From: a virus
IMG/VR virus record: IMGVR_UViG_3300020428_000111
Coordinates: 1 to 21,637 of that record
Reading direction: 5' to 3' (one strand)
DNA: 21,637 bases
Shown here in pieces: positions 1,560-11,914 of the stretch. Both the position numbers and the translations under genes were made by a program. Position 1 is the first letter of the stretch, and each line of letters opens with the position of its first letter. The notes beneath the pieces are model-generated. The model saw only the letters and a list, made by a program, of their open reading frames with translations, was not told where the DNA came from and ran no database searches.

Positions 1560-2183
1560 TTACTTTAAATTATCTTGTATTAATTTCTTCAGAGTGAATT
1601 TATATTTGGTTTTATCAAAATCAAGAAATCTTCTATACTTATCTAAGAAGATTTTTTCTTCTTCCCATACTATATCATCACTCAACTTTTTATTCCATTG
1701 TTTAAAAAAGTTTAAAATGTCATCTAGTATAATTAAAGTTTCTGGTGTGATTTTCTTCGCAAGATACTTTTTAAGTAAAAATGGATGTGTATCTTCCTCA
1801 CACTCGAACATATAATTAAATTTATTTATATTATTATCTAAATTCTTAACTAAAACTTCATTTATTAAATATAAAATATTTTGGGAGAAAGTATATGACA
1901 TACTTTCCATTCTTTTTTTCCAATCTGTATAGTTTTGTTCAGAGAATTCACCTATCCATTTGGAGTGTGCGACAAAGTTCGCGATGTAATAATTCTTTAA
2001 GTCTTCTGGGTCGGAATGTTTTTTAGACATTGAATAGAATACTTTTCTATCATTTCTTTTAAAAAAAGATTCTTTTGTAGTTTTTGTTTTACCACCATAT
2101 TTAACAAAATCATAGTTCCCTTTATCAAAGTGTGCCTTGATACCAAGATACATTTTATATGCGTCAAACGAATCCATTATCAT
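1560..2183 (-). CDS. 59: gp59-like loader of the replicative helicase
   Basis: T4 gp59 family: an all-helical protein that binds fork DNA, gp32 and the gp41 helicase and loads the helicase. Length 207 aa versus 217 in T4. The N-terminal part aligns with T4 by eye: DAYKMYLGIKAHFDKGNYDFVKY resembles the T4 YKLYLMIKQHMNGKYDVIKY segment, and KRNDRKVFYSMSKKH plus the IANFVAHSKWIGEFS segment match KRRDKYFFQKLSEKY and ISNLVANQDAWIGDIS. The C-terminal half contains ILDDILNFF and a basic end. The ATG overlaps the gp33 stop in an ATGA arrangement (4 nt), implying translational coupling. Position next to gp33 and gp32 is the T4 gene order. Confidence 0.93.
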   Translation of the reverse strand: MIMDSFDAYKMYLGIKAHFDKGNYDFVKYGGKTKTTKESFFKRNDRKVFYSMSKKHSDPEDLKNYYIANFVAHSKWIGEFSEQNYTDWKKRMESMSYTFSQNILYLINEVLVKNLDNNINKFNYMFECEEDTHPFLLKKYLAKKITPETLIILDDILNFFKQWNKKLSDDIVWEEEKIFLDKYRRFLDFDKTKYKFTLKKLIQDNLK

Positions 2184-2440
2184 TCTATTGGTAACTTTCC
2201 TCTCTTTGGTAAGAAATTTAAGTCCCGTGCGTTTGCTTCTATTTTTTCCTTTAGTGGTTTTGATATTAATTTTGTTATAGAAGATGGGTCTACATCATTT
2301 TTCTCACAATAATAGAGTACAGCCTGCATATGTGTCATACTGTATTTCTTTACTATTTCTTCAATTTCTACTGCGAATAACTTTTGTGTTTTAAATGACA
2401 TTGTTTCCTCTATTACTGGTAGTACATAACCTAAACTCAT
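2180..2440 (-). CDS. 33: gp33-like late transcription co-activator
   Basis: T4 gp33 family: links the host RNA polymerase beta flap to the sliding clamp and activates late promoters together with the gp55 sigma. The 86-aa protein (112 in T4) matches the conserved middle: IEEIVKKYSMTHMQAVLYYCEKNDVD resembles T4 IEKMVEEFGMSYLEATTAFLEENSI. There are two possible starts. The ATG at 2440 has GAGG 7 nt upstream but begins only about 15 nt after the tmRNA 3' hairpin. Met14 (ATG at 2401) has AGAGGAAACA directly upstream and begins nearer the conserved domain. Either could be used. The stop overlaps the gp59 start. Presence of gp33 fits the TATAAATA-like late promoters elsewhere in the window. Confidence 0.88.
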   Translation of the reverse strand: MSLGYVLPVIEETMSFKTQKLFAVEIEEIVKKYSMTHMQAVLYYCEKNDVDPSSITKLISKPLKEKIEANARDLNFLPKRGKLPIE

Positions 2441-2454
2441 AATATATCCTCAAA

Positions 2455-2659
2455 GGTGGGATTCTGTTGCCAAGTTCCCACCAAACTCCCGCCACTTTTA
2501 TTTAAGCGGCCATTTGATAATCATAGTTATCGTTTGTTTTATAATGTATCTCAGACAACATAATCGAATCCAGTACGCCCCCTCAATGTATTAAAGTAAT
2601 TCTGGTGGAGGCGAGGCGAATCGAACGCCTGTCTTATATTACCCTTCGTGAAACACATT
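2455..2659 (-). ncRNA. ssrA: Two-piece (circularly permuted) tmRNA
   Basis: Rescues stalled ribosomes and tags the nascent peptide. Gene order is permuted: acceptor piece first, then coding piece. The acceptor piece has a T arm with stem AGGCG/CGCCT and loop TTCGATT (2630-2614), the 3' acceptor strand CGCCTCC (2613-2607), discriminator A and encoded CCA (2605-2603). A 20-nt intervening segment (2602-2583) follows. The coding piece opens with GGGGGCG (2582-2576), pairing in 7 bp with CGCCTCC and leaving G3-U70, the alanine identity pair, then the tmRNA D-arm consensus CTGGATTCGA. GTCT (2556-2553) pairs with AGAC (2634-2631) to join the pieces. A tag frame lies at 2537-2502 and a 7-bp GGTGGGA/TCCCACC hairpin at 2482-2455. 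The ends are estimates. Two-piece tmRNAs are typical of alphaproteobacteria and some cyanobacteria. Confidence 0.92.
2502..2537 (-). other. tmRNA tag reading frame (T-N-D-N-Y-D-Y-Q-M-A-A, stop)
   Basis: The codons ACA AAC GAT AAC TAT GAT TAT CAA ATG GCC GCT TAA follow the D arm and joining helix. The tag resembles bacterial tags: an N-D-x-N-Y start and a hydrophobic residue followed by Ala-Ala at the end, the usual ClpXP degron. By alignment to E. coli (GCA AAC GAC GAA AAC), the resume codon would be ACA (Thr) in place of GCA (Ala). The exact resume codon cannot be proved from sequence alone. Confidence 0.82.
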
Positions 2660-2665
2660 GATATT

Positions 2666-2694
2666 ATTATATATAAAAAATTCATGTTTGTCAA
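2666..2694 (-). promoter_or_regulatory. Perfect-consensus sigma70 promoter for the tmRNA/gp33 operon
   Basis: TTGACA (2694-2689), a 17-nt spacer and TATAAT (2671-2666) give both consensus hexamers at optimal spacing. The predicted start near 2659 falls just before the acceptor piece of the tmRNA. I see no T-tailed terminator between the tmRNA and gp33, so gp33, gp59 and the 53-aa gene are probably co-transcribed with it. Confidence 0.88.
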
Positions 2695-2707
2695 GTATTA
2701 ATTTGCT

Positions 2708-2780
2708 TGAAGGGACTGGGACTCGAACCCAGAATTTTTGTGTGCGACACAAATGGTTTCCCAAATTAGCCTATCCCCTC
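2708..2780 (-). tRNA. tRNA-Ala-like (anticodon CGC)
   Basis: A cloverleaf can be drawn: acceptor GAGGGGA/TCCCTTC, D arm beginning GGCT with GGG in the loop, anticodon stem TTTGT/ACAAA with loop GTCGCAC (U33, anticodon CGC at 2746-2744), a 4-nt variable loop, and T arm CTGGG/CCCAG with loop TTCGAGT. The third acceptor pair is G3-U70 and the discriminator is A73, both alanine identity elements that agree with the CGC anticodon. CCA is not encoded. One D-stem pair is mismatched (C-A). The gene begins immediately after the stop codon of the exonuclease gene and ends 14 nt before the tmRNA -35 box, so it is likely processed from the exonuclease mRNA. Confidence 0.83.
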
Positions 2781-3482
2781 TTATGAAGCCAACCTATTCT
2801 GGTGAAACTCATTTAACGCTTCTTCTAATTCTTTTTGGTAATCTTGTTTATTTTTAACAAATTCTTGGACACTACCATCTTCAGTTACAACTAATATGAC
2901 TACTTGATTAATCTCAATACCTGTTCTTTCTTCAAACATTTGACAATAAGCGGTCGCCTGTGTATAGTAGTTCAAGTTCCAAGCATCATTTCTTTCACTT
3001 CTAGAGGTCTTAAAATCGATTACAGAGGGTGTTCCTTCATAATCTGCGATACAATCTACTCTACCTGCGACCATAAGTTCATCTGACCACAATGCGGTTT
3101 CTTGCGCATAGATATTATCAATGTTATGTAACGCCCTTTTCCTTAACTGATTAAAAAGACAATATGGTAAAAAGGTTTTCACCTCATGCATTCTAAATTC
3201 TTCTGGAGAATAAATGTGTTTATTACACAAATAATCTTCACAAATTTTATGTACTACACTACCACGATTTGCTGATGTTCGTGCGATATAATTCGCAACA
3301 TCTTCACCAACTCTTTTTCTCCATTCAAATAGTCCCTCTTTGTGTCGTGTTGATAAAACAGTAGTTATAGATGGATATGTATTGTTTGTTGGTGTCACAT
3401 AATGTCTCTTTCTCTCTACATTTACTGTTTTAATTGTTGGAACAAATTGAATGTTCCTTTTAAATTCGTATAATTCTTCCAT
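2781..3482 (-). CDS. PD-(D/E)XK exonuclease, MGME1/RecB/Cas4-like
   Basis: The 233-aa protein shows the ordered motifs of the MGME1/RecB nuclease superfamily: YPSITTVLS and WRKRVGEDVANYIA (about 36-68), RGSVVHKICEDYL (73-85), then the metal-binding core AGRVD (Asp143), VIDFKTS (Asp156, Lys158) and the QATAY motif (175-179) typical of RecB nucleases. Such enzymes degrade single-stranded DNA ends; in T4-like marine phages the role is probably recombination or end processing, inferred from family and neighbours. It starts 3 nt after the lysozyme stop without a clear Shine-Dalgarno, so translational coupling is likely. Its stop abuts the tRNA. Confidence 0.85.
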   Translation of the reverse strand: MEELYEFKRNIQFVPTIKTVNVERKRHYVTPTNNTYPSITTVLSTRHKEGLFEWRKRVGEDVANYIARTSANRGSVVHKICEDYLCNKHIYSPEEFRMHEVKTFLPYCLFNQLRKRALHNIDNIYAQETALWSDELMVAGRVDCIADYEGTPSVIDFKTSRSERNDAWNLNYYTQATAYCQMFEERTGIEINQVVILVVTEDGSVQEFVKNKQDYQKELEEALNEFHQNRLAS

Positions 3483-10081: not shown

Positions 10082-11914
10082 TTATCTCCTACTCTGTGAA
10101 TTTTTTAATATCCACAATTCTCGTTCGAGTTTCTTTCTTGTATTTATGGCGTTGTTTAAGTCAGTCTGAAATTTCAATACTGGGTCATCACCATTAATTT
10201 GTATCATTTTTTCTTGTTGGTTTTCATATATACTAAACGCATATTGATTTAACATTTCGTTATCTTCTTTATAAAACTCTTGTTTGTTTTTGTAAATCTC
10301 TCTTGTATCAAACATTTGTTTATTCACACTACCATACTGTTTTGATATATCAACTTGGGATTGAACCATAATTTGTGAAAGAATAATATTTGTACCCTCT
10401 AATTGTTTTCCTATATCTTTTGTAACTTGTTTAACCTTTTCTTCAATTTTAGAAGCGTCTACCTTTATAGTTTTTGTTCCACTATCCTCATCTTCGACTT
10501 TAGTATCTGAATCTTCAGTTTTAGCGGTTATCTCTTCACTTCCTTCTTCTTCAATTGTTTCTTCTTCTGATGGTGTTTCTTCTTCACTTGGTTCTTCTTT
10601 TGCGACTATAGTACTTGATTCTTCTTCAGGCGTTGACATTGTCTCCATAGTCTCTGTTTCTGGACTAGGGCCTTCCTCTGGTTCGTTTTCTTTTGCGACT
10701 ATTGTAGATTCATCTTTTGATTCCTCTCCCATAGGTGGAGTATCATTTGATGATTCCATTGTCGTAGATTCACTTTTTGGTTCTTCTTCTATAGTTTGAG
10801 GTTTATCATCTTCCATAGCGACTTGAGTACTGTCTGATTCTTCCATCATATCAGTTGACATTTCTTCAAACTGTTGTGTTTCTTCTTCCATCACAGGTTT
10901 ATCATTAAATTCTTCTTCCATTGATATATCACTATTTGATGTTTTAAGTCCAAGAAAATCACCTACACCAGTATCAACTCCTGCGAATGTATCATCAATA
11001 TCCTTTTCAGTTTGAACATCTGATTCTGTAAAAAACATTGTCTCTTCTTCTTTATAAACACTTTCATATACAACCATTTCATCAACATAACTGTTTTCTT
11101 CTTTTAAGTTATTTTCCACATAATCATCAAAGGTTTGATTTGAATCTTTTTTATCTTTGTCAATATCAACAGAGTCTTCTATATTTTGAAAAGTGTCATC
11201 ATCAACTGGACAAGTACTTGGTACTCTCTCAAAACAATATGTTGTTGAAACTGAAGTTGAACTTTCAATCTGACTATAATCAATAATTAAACTTGGATTT
11301 CTCAAGTCTGCTGCATAATGTGCTGTAGTGTTACTAGACTCGTTAAACTCAAACCTAGCTGTTATTTCGTAGTCTTGCTGACTGTTACCATTAACAATAA
11401 TAGTGTCGGTATAGTTACTATAATCACAGCCATTAAAAGTAGTACAGCTTCCGTCAATTTGTCTTTGTTGAGTTATAGTATTGTTATTATCATCTACTAA
11501 TGTTTGTTTCATTATAACATTTTGTGTATTGCTATTCCAAAACCAGATATCAGCTCCAAGTGTAGAACTGAATCCATTGTTAATTTCTTCTTTTGTTAAA
11601 TTAGCGTCTTGTTGTAAAGATACTGTACTTTCAACATACCCACCATCAAAACCTGCAATAACTTCGTTGCCATGTCTAAGGTCTACATTTGTTCCTGTCC
11701 AAGAACCATCTGTAAAGTTCGGACTTAGTAAGTTACTTGTTGTTTGTGAAGTAGTAGTTGTCGTTGTAGTTGTACAAGTTAAATCACCTTGTTGAGGTGA
11801 ATTTTCGACACAAACTGTTTCCGCTCTTGTATTAAAAGCAATTAGTAAACTAAGAAAACAAAATAATATTGTAAGTCCTATAAACTTACCAATAGTTTTA
11901 AATAATTCACGCAT
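10082..11914 (-). CDS. Secreted 610-aa protein with poly-Thr, beta-rich and acidic repeat regions
   Basis: The N-terminus has a signal sequence (hydrophobic 12-27; likely cleavage after NTRA). A Thr-rich linker (about 47-59) follows, then a beta-rich region (about 60-225) with NLLSPNFTDGSWTG, typical of jelly-roll carbohydrate-binding or adhesin modules, and several Cys (CTTFNGC, CFERVPSTC) suited to extracytoplasmic disulfides. Residues about 240-480 are low-complexity Glu/Ser/Thr with a repeated STIVAKE unit. The C-terminal 120 residues are helical (VKQVTKDIGKQLEG... ILKNSQSRR). A secreted or virion-surface protein is inferred; the family is not firmly recognised. No strong Shine-Dalgarno precedes ATG; the upstream gene ends 30 nt before. 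Confidence 0.85.
   Translation of the reverse strand: MRELFKTIGKFIGLTILFCFLSLLIAFNTRAETVCVENSPQQGDLTCTTTTTTTTSQTTSNLLSPNFTDGSWTGTNVDLRHGNEVIAGFDGGYVESTVSLQQDANLTKEEINNGFSSTLGADIWFWNSNTQNVIMKQTLVDDNNNTITQQRQIDGSCTTFNGCDYSNYTDTIIVNGNSQQDYEITARFEFNESSNTTAHYAADLRNPSLIIDYSQIESSTSVSTTYCFERVPSTCPVDDDTFQNIEDSVDIDKDKKDSNQTFDDYVENNLKEENSYVDEMVVYESVYKEEETMFFTESDVQTEKDIDDTFAGVDTGVGDFLGLKTSNSDISMEEEFNDKPVMEEETQQFEEMSTDMMEESDSTQVAMEDDKPQTIEEEPKSESTTMESSNDTPPMGEESKDESTIVAKENEPEEGPSPETETMETMSTPEEESSTIVAKEEPSEEETPSEEETIEEEGSEEITAKTEDSDTKVEDEDSGTKTIKVDASKIEEKVKQVTKDIGKQLEGTNIILSQIMVQSQVDISKQYGSVNKQMFDTREIYKNKQEFYKEDNEMLNQYAFSIYENQQEKMIQINGDDPVLKFQTDLNNAINTRKKLERELWILKNSQSRR

Follow-up and report, generated by a model that had tools for sequence, protein, structure and literature searches.

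A gene lying on the minus strand (2659-2455) of a marine virus record, between an exonuclease and a gp33-type coactivator, raises the question of whether a two-piece (permuted) tmRNA can work when it has no room for pseudoknot 1 (PK1) and when its resume codon stands out of register with the A usually found at position -4. The record, IMG/VR virus record IMGVR_UViG_3300020428_000111, was analysed over its whole length of 21.6 kb, hereafter the window. It carries a T4-like marine phage gene set (gp32-type single-strand binding protein, helicase loader, gp33-type coactivator, exonuclease, PhoH, ribonucleotide reductase and primase), and by its single-strand binding protein the nearest isolates are Pelagibacter phage HTVC008M (61%) and Methylophilales phage Melnitz (59%). 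A direct DNA similarity search against isolated phages returned short tRNA-like or chance matches only. Also encoded in the window (10082-11914, minus strand) is a 610-aa protein with a hydrophobic, signal-like N-terminus and a low-complexity middle rich in Glu, Ser and Thr. An earlier note had placed a permuted tmRNA, carried by the phage and equipped with its own tag, at 2455-2659. These coordinates proved exact; the note mentioned neither the strand nor the lack of PK1 space, the sigma-70 promoter, the stop-codon hairpin and the position of the resume codon off the -4 A register.

Searches with cmscan matched Rfam RF04321 (tmRNA_permuted) to positions 2657-2502 at 65.3 bits (E = 8.5e-11), exceeding the gathering score of 47 and covering model positions 1-213 of 213. 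The beta_tmRNA model (RF01850) matched 2708-2440 at 57.6 bits, under its gathering score of 84. No gathering-level match was obtained for the alphaproteobacterial model (RF01849), whose clan members were masked at lower scores by the overlapping sub-threshold beta_tmRNA match, and ARAGORN run on the window missed the gene. Upon inspection, every part that the note had listed could be located (Table 1). The permuted acceptor strands, CGCCTCC and GGGGGCG, form 7/7 pairs including G3-U70 and are accompanied by an encoded CCA and the 20-nt segment; the T arm (stem AGGCG/CGCCT, 5 bp) and a D-loop occur without an anticodon arm, the named D-arm consensus being found as CTGGATTCGA; and the joining helix, P2, is long and bulged (10 + 11 bp). 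The tag frame is complete, with 11 codons running from a threonine codon, ACA, to an Ala-Ala proteolysis ending and a stop (TNDNYDYQMAA*), as had been read from the alignment. Around that stop, the H5-like hairpin has 7 bp in the consensus fold and is invariant within the clade. A 3' hairpin of RF01849 type with GGCAACAGAA is present, bearing the alphaproteobacterial 3'-end signature CUUGGCAACAGAA; the alpha_tmRNA consensus 3' end is ACCuGGCAACAGAA, with which Melnitz and Mosig agree at this point, and an A-U to G-U change in the hairpin keeps the pair. The RF01849-type PK1 between P2 and tag is absent from the window gene. Over its 205 nt, the fold beats shuffled sequences (z = -2.8).

Table 1. 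Features of the tmRNA locus and its neighbours (window positions).
Feature	Position	Strand	Description
Exonuclease	2781..3482	-	PHROG 298, E = 5.9e-64; upstream; synteny marker
tRNA-Ala (CGC)	2708..2780	-	ARAGORN and Rfam RF00005, 50.5 bits; upstream of tmRNA promoter
Sigma-70 promoter	2666..2694	-	TTGACA (2694-2689), 17-nt spacer, TATAAT (2671-2666); perfect, 12/12
Acceptor piece, 5' end	2631..2659	-	P2 5' strand and GAC
P2 5' strand	2659-2634	-	outer 10 nt 2659-2650, variable 5-nt bulge 2649-2645, inner 11 nt 2644-2634; pairs with 2563-2543
T arm	2614..2630	-	AGGCG-TTCGATT-CGCCT; 5-bp stem, 7-nt loop; covariance-model match
3' acceptor strand	2603..2613	-	CGCCTCC (2613-2607), ACCA (2606-2603); end of acceptor piece
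Intervening segment	2583..2602	-	20 nt of precursor, from CCA to 5' acceptor strand; excision expected
5' acceptor strand with D-loop	2564..2582	-	GGGGGCG (2582-2576); coding piece begins; covariance-model match
D-loop	2575-2564	-	TACTGGATTCGA; covariance-model match
P2 3' strand	2543..2563	-	TTATGTTGTCTGAGATACATT; pairs with 2659-2634
Linker, P2 to tag	2538..2542	-	ATAAA, 5 nt; AUAA tetramer at 2542-2539
Tag frame	2502..2537	-	ACA AAC GAT AAC TAT GAT TAT CAA ATG GCC GCT TAA; by homology
H5-like hairpin	2491..2510	-	GCCGCUU (2510-2504) / AAGUGGC (2497-2491); around UAA stop
3' hairpin	2455..2482	-	GGUGGGA (2482-2476) / UCCCACC (2461-2455), loop ACUUGGCAACAGAA
gp33-like late-transcription coactivator	2180..2440	-	PHROG 254, E = 1.1e-20; directly downstream of tmRNA

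The promoter is the only exact TTGACA-N17-TATAAT match in the window, with none found in 100 shuffles, and it ends 6 nt ahead of the first P2 base; from this position, transcription would be expected to begin near 2659, where P2 itself opens. The gp33 gene is likely cotranscribed with the tmRNA gene upstream of it. Both candidate intrinsic terminators turned out to be T-arm hairpins read on the opposite strand and were discarded. The gene order around the tmRNA is the same in the window, Melnitz and Mosig. Just upstream of the tmRNA, a tRNA-Ala occurs in the window and in all 5 relatives checked (e.g. L004 4634-4706, L131 213-285 and L134 59-131), represented by one of two unrelated-looking genes, the first divergent (CGC, but TGC in L006) and the second a canonical tRNA-Ala(TGC). 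Between relatives the tRNA gene has been swapped while its amino acid, Ala, the same as that of the tmRNA, was kept.

Retention of the tmRNA was observed in 8 contigs including the window, corresponding to 6 distinct sequences, across which 88 columns of the T arm, acceptor strands, D-loop, linker and tag are invariant. None of the 36 tag columns varies, nor does any column of the 5' acceptor strand and D-loop, and both promoter hexamers are unchanged. Variable columns are instead found in the promoter spacer (9/17), P2 and its bulge (7/29) and the intervening segment (3/20), and 14 of 123 third positions vary in gp33. By our own arithmetic, chance would leave the tag alone invariant with a probability of about 1%, and all 88 columns with one of about 2e-5. 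Within the clade, P2 shows 2 pairs with compensatory changes, and one genome (L134) breaks two pairs; covariation at this level is weak, with 65/500 shuffles scoring as well, and was set aside as proof of structure. Paired changes of the kind whose absence from related phages would, by the note, have counted against it are present: in a set of 42 distinct related phage genes, both the acceptor stem and the T stem covary, with acceptor pairs such as GGGGGCG/CGCCTCC, GGGGATG/CATCTCC and GGGCTAG/CTAGTCC, a signal somewhat inflated by the detector having selected genes for pairing. TCCACCA and most of the acceptor pairs are themselves search requirements of this detector, so its G3-U70 count cannot serve as separate evidence; many of its phage genes are recovered independently by Rfam. 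These patterns bear on whether the locus is a decaying, non-functional remnant of an inherited ssrA, kept mainly as a leader of the gp33 operon. Such decay could account for a score far under those of related phage genes (65 versus 90-160 bits), the indel ahead of the tag and the lost PK1 segment, but across six distinct genomes the functional segments stay invariant and the spacers do not, the perfect promoter is retained and pairing is largely preserved by compensating changes, leaving this explanation very improbable.

The gene is reduced between the D-loop and the tag. Its resume codon follows 26 nt after the end of the D-loop, and with 21 of these taken up by P2 no space is left for PK1; at this point 63 alphaproteobacterial two-piece genes have 63-70 nt, and other gp33-locus phages mostly 61-88 nt. 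Pattern scans of IMG/VR identified further compact genes, 47 distinct ones with 28-30 nt and 35 with 36-45 nt, at least some of them at other loci; the compact form is thus not confined to this clade but occurs more widely among phages. Those at 28-30 nt (e.g. L138, L150, L395 and L407) share with the window gene the lack of PK1 space and their invisibility to ARAGORN, but differ from it in their GCA resume codon (found in all of the roughly 80 other compact phage genes), A at -4 and tags of the form ANDNFAPS..ALAA; in three compact contigs inspected, the tmRNA also occupies a different locus. ARAGORN found 0/16 compact genes at 28-30 nt and 2/7 at 36-45 nt, whereas Rfam recognised 10/10 checked. 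Since surveys used ARAGORN, which misses this class, the number and range of phage tmRNAs have been underestimated; it missed compact genes in L138, L140, L150 and L162 as well as in roughly 40 more IMG/VR contigs. Among these, the tmRNA lies near nrdA/nrdB (ribonucleotide reductase) in L150 and L162, and a purine-type permease gene lies directly downstream of it in L140 and L162 (names assigned by eye). L392, L420 and L445 carry compact tmRNAs with an exceptionally long 31-codon tag, ANDNVAQPKFMKKRNTFARKVGFTKG(M/T)ALAA.

The E. coli tmRNA still tags when PK1 is exchanged for single-stranded RNA or a hairpin (PMC4236655, PMC3968760), and missing PK1 thus does not imply lost function. One cyanobacterial two-piece gene, read by eye, has a short segment of about 53 nt holding a small hairpin only, and hence offers a precedent for reduction. 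Natural tmRNAs without PK1 space would bear out the E. coli mutant evidence that PK1 is dispensable. Missing PK1 and a displaced frame signal might also be expected of a non-tagging, tRNA-like decoy which, charged or bound to SmpB, interferes with trans-translation in the host, and there is a parallel in mycobacteriophage DS6A, whose molecule consists of the tRNA-like domain (TLD) only: a DS6A-like TLD-only molecule strongly inhibits tmRNA (PMC4131195; PMC11915505). The DS6A molecule has no coding part, however, whereas the window gene retains a complete, invariant tag frame, the stop hairpin and the 3' hairpin, and many other compact phage genes carry normal A-N-D tags; we regard such a decoy as quite unlikely.

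The resume codon presents a separate difficulty. Relative to related phages, which read ...UAAAUGCAAACGAUAA, a single base is missing immediately ahead of the tag in the window clade (...UAAAACAAACGAUAA), such that the codon identified by alignment is ACA (Thr) rather than Ala, with U at -4 and A at -5. The -4 A rule, a rule of function and not a criterion of Rfam family membership, is therefore broken in this frame. At -4, 61 of 63 bacterial genes have A and two have G; phage genes all have A there except a few judged to have been mis-framed by the detector; some automatic tag calls (TNEVNANDN..., TSDILVI and ANDGYALAA), with their -4 exceptions, were likewise judged to be detector artefacts. 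The AUAA tetramer stands in register with CAA at 2536 and out of register with ACA at 2537. AUAG and AUAA tetramers are preferred ahead of the resume codon (PMC4236655), and in E. coli A86 is the main frame determinant, with A86U resulting either in no measurable activity or in +1 reading (PMC2481249). A functional tmRNA might accordingly resume one base later, at CAA, and add Ala-QTITMIIKWPLK, a peptide that is no degradation tag of the SsrA type; ribosomes would then be freed and the protein left unmarked for the usual proteases. The +1 frame from 2536 (QTITMIIKWPLK*) is open for 12 codons and satisfies the -5 U/-4 A rule, the one-base deletion sits just before the tag, and changes at A86 shift the frame to +1 in E. 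coli (PMC2481249). On the other hand, the -1 frame (NKR*) satisfies the rule too, so that the rule alone selects no single frame, and the aligned frame, TNDNYDYQMAA, keeps NDNY and a C-terminal MAA as in ANDNYYAMAA of related phages, where decay would be expected had it gone unread. Homology and the intact NDNY...MAA favour the aligned frame and the -4 rule the shifted ones; substitutions cannot decide between them because the tag is invariant in every relative found. We consider it unlikely that the frame signal has slipped by one base, with ribosomes being rescued and the non-degradation tag added, or that the frame is set without A at -4. A slipped frame, if real, would let the phage free ribosomes while sparing the proteins, and the clade in any case offers a natural experiment on resume-codon choice by the ribosome, with a conserved signal and a conserved tag set one base apart.

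In tmRNAs generally, AlaRS recognises G3-U70, SmpB fills the place of the missing anticodon arm and the tag leads to proteolysis. The reading that we find most likely is of a functional, reduced tmRNA using host SmpB. No SmpB was found in the 11 phage records searched, which included isolates of 141-147 kb. The host RNA polymerase would transcribe the gene early from the consensus sigma-70 promoter, with gp33 behind it, and host tRNA-processing enzymes would excise the 20-nt segment; the acceptor stem and P2 would then join the two products, an acceptor piece and a coding piece. Charged by host AlaRS through G3-U70, the RNA would be delivered by host SmpB to stalled ribosomes, where translation would switch to the coding piece, append Ala-TNDNYDYQMAA as an SsrA-like proteolysis tag and stop in the H5-like hairpin. 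Such activity might provide extra ribosome-rescue capacity in infection, when host mRNA is destroyed and truncated mRNAs are to be expected; by sequence, this role is indistinguishable from the two others raised in the note, replacement of the host RNA and a different tag. Several lines of evidence argue for a working tmRNA: the full-length covariance-model match, stem covariation in 42 genes and 88 invariant columns; the perfect promoter, the gene order shared with annotated isolates and the recurrence of compact forms with normal tags; and the dispensability of PK1 in E. coli (PMC4236655, PMC3968760). Arguing against it are the ACA resume codon with U at -4, A86U being harmful in E. coli (PMC2481249), together with the weak covariation of the clade and the beta_tmRNA score below its cut-off. 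Taken together, we judge it probable that this marine T4-like phage carries a working two-piece tmRNA, compact and without PK1, that depends on host SmpB and would add rescue capacity.

The note had called a two-piece form unusual in a T4-like phage, a view that known systems contradict. A 2022 survey by ARAGORN counted 53 two-piece tmRNAs in phages, all but three of these phages being marine or aquatic (50), showed a tree with phage and host ssrA lineages, and described the Melnitz two-piece ssrA as adjoining the late-transcription coactivator gene (PMC9004378). Melnitz and Mosig have an annotated tmRNA between the exonuclease and the gp33 coactivator, and an unannotated two-piece tmRNA was identified at the same site in HTVC008M. 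Of the gp33-homologue loci drawn from IMG/VR, 58/78 carry a two-piece tmRNA, as do 43/50 records in one batch collected via the exonuclease and 11/30 in the next; together with the isolates, these gp33- and exonuclease-selected counts show that the two-piece tmRNA is ordinary in this phage group. At one gp33 locus (L254, ~560-850) the usual GCAAACGA tag start is missing and a short DFALAA ending is left. A manA RNA motif (RF01745, 64 bits) was also seen in Mosig (L083, 4264-4471), upstream of an annotated rubrerythrin gene.

The genes of Melnitz, Mosig and HTVC008M resemble the window gene in their permuted order, exonuclease-gp33 locus, alpha-type 3' hairpin and G3-U70 acceptor stem, but have a longer segment from D-loop to tag (63 nt in Melnitz), are found by ARAGORN, and resume at Ala or Gly codons with the tags ANDNYVPVDYALAA, GEDNFALAA and ANFNEYALAA. 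Melnitz further differs in a glutamine riboswitch at the 3' end of its tmRNA gene; none was detected at gathering score in the window or, at E up to 1, in 2150-3000. The alphaproteobacterial two-piece tmRNA (RF01849), reportedly described from Caulobacter by Keiler and colleagues in 2000, likewise shares with the window gene its permuted order, T arm, acceptor, D-loop, P2, NDN in the tag and the 3' GGCAACAGAA hairpin, although 63/63 of these bacterial genes have 63-70 nt from D-loop to an Ala resume codon, against 26 nt and Thr here. When a bacterial source was sought, a strict pattern matched 0 genomes, and a looser one, demanding a GGNTTCGA D-loop, gave 55 genome matches, none of which combined a good acceptor stem with a T arm. 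Mycobacteriophage DS6A offers another phage-borne, reduced tmRNA, but one that is one-piece and has no tag (PMC4131195), whereas the window gene retains a full tag. The presence of two-piece tmRNAs in phages is therefore known, and the new part is the stripped-down variant with a displaced frame signal.
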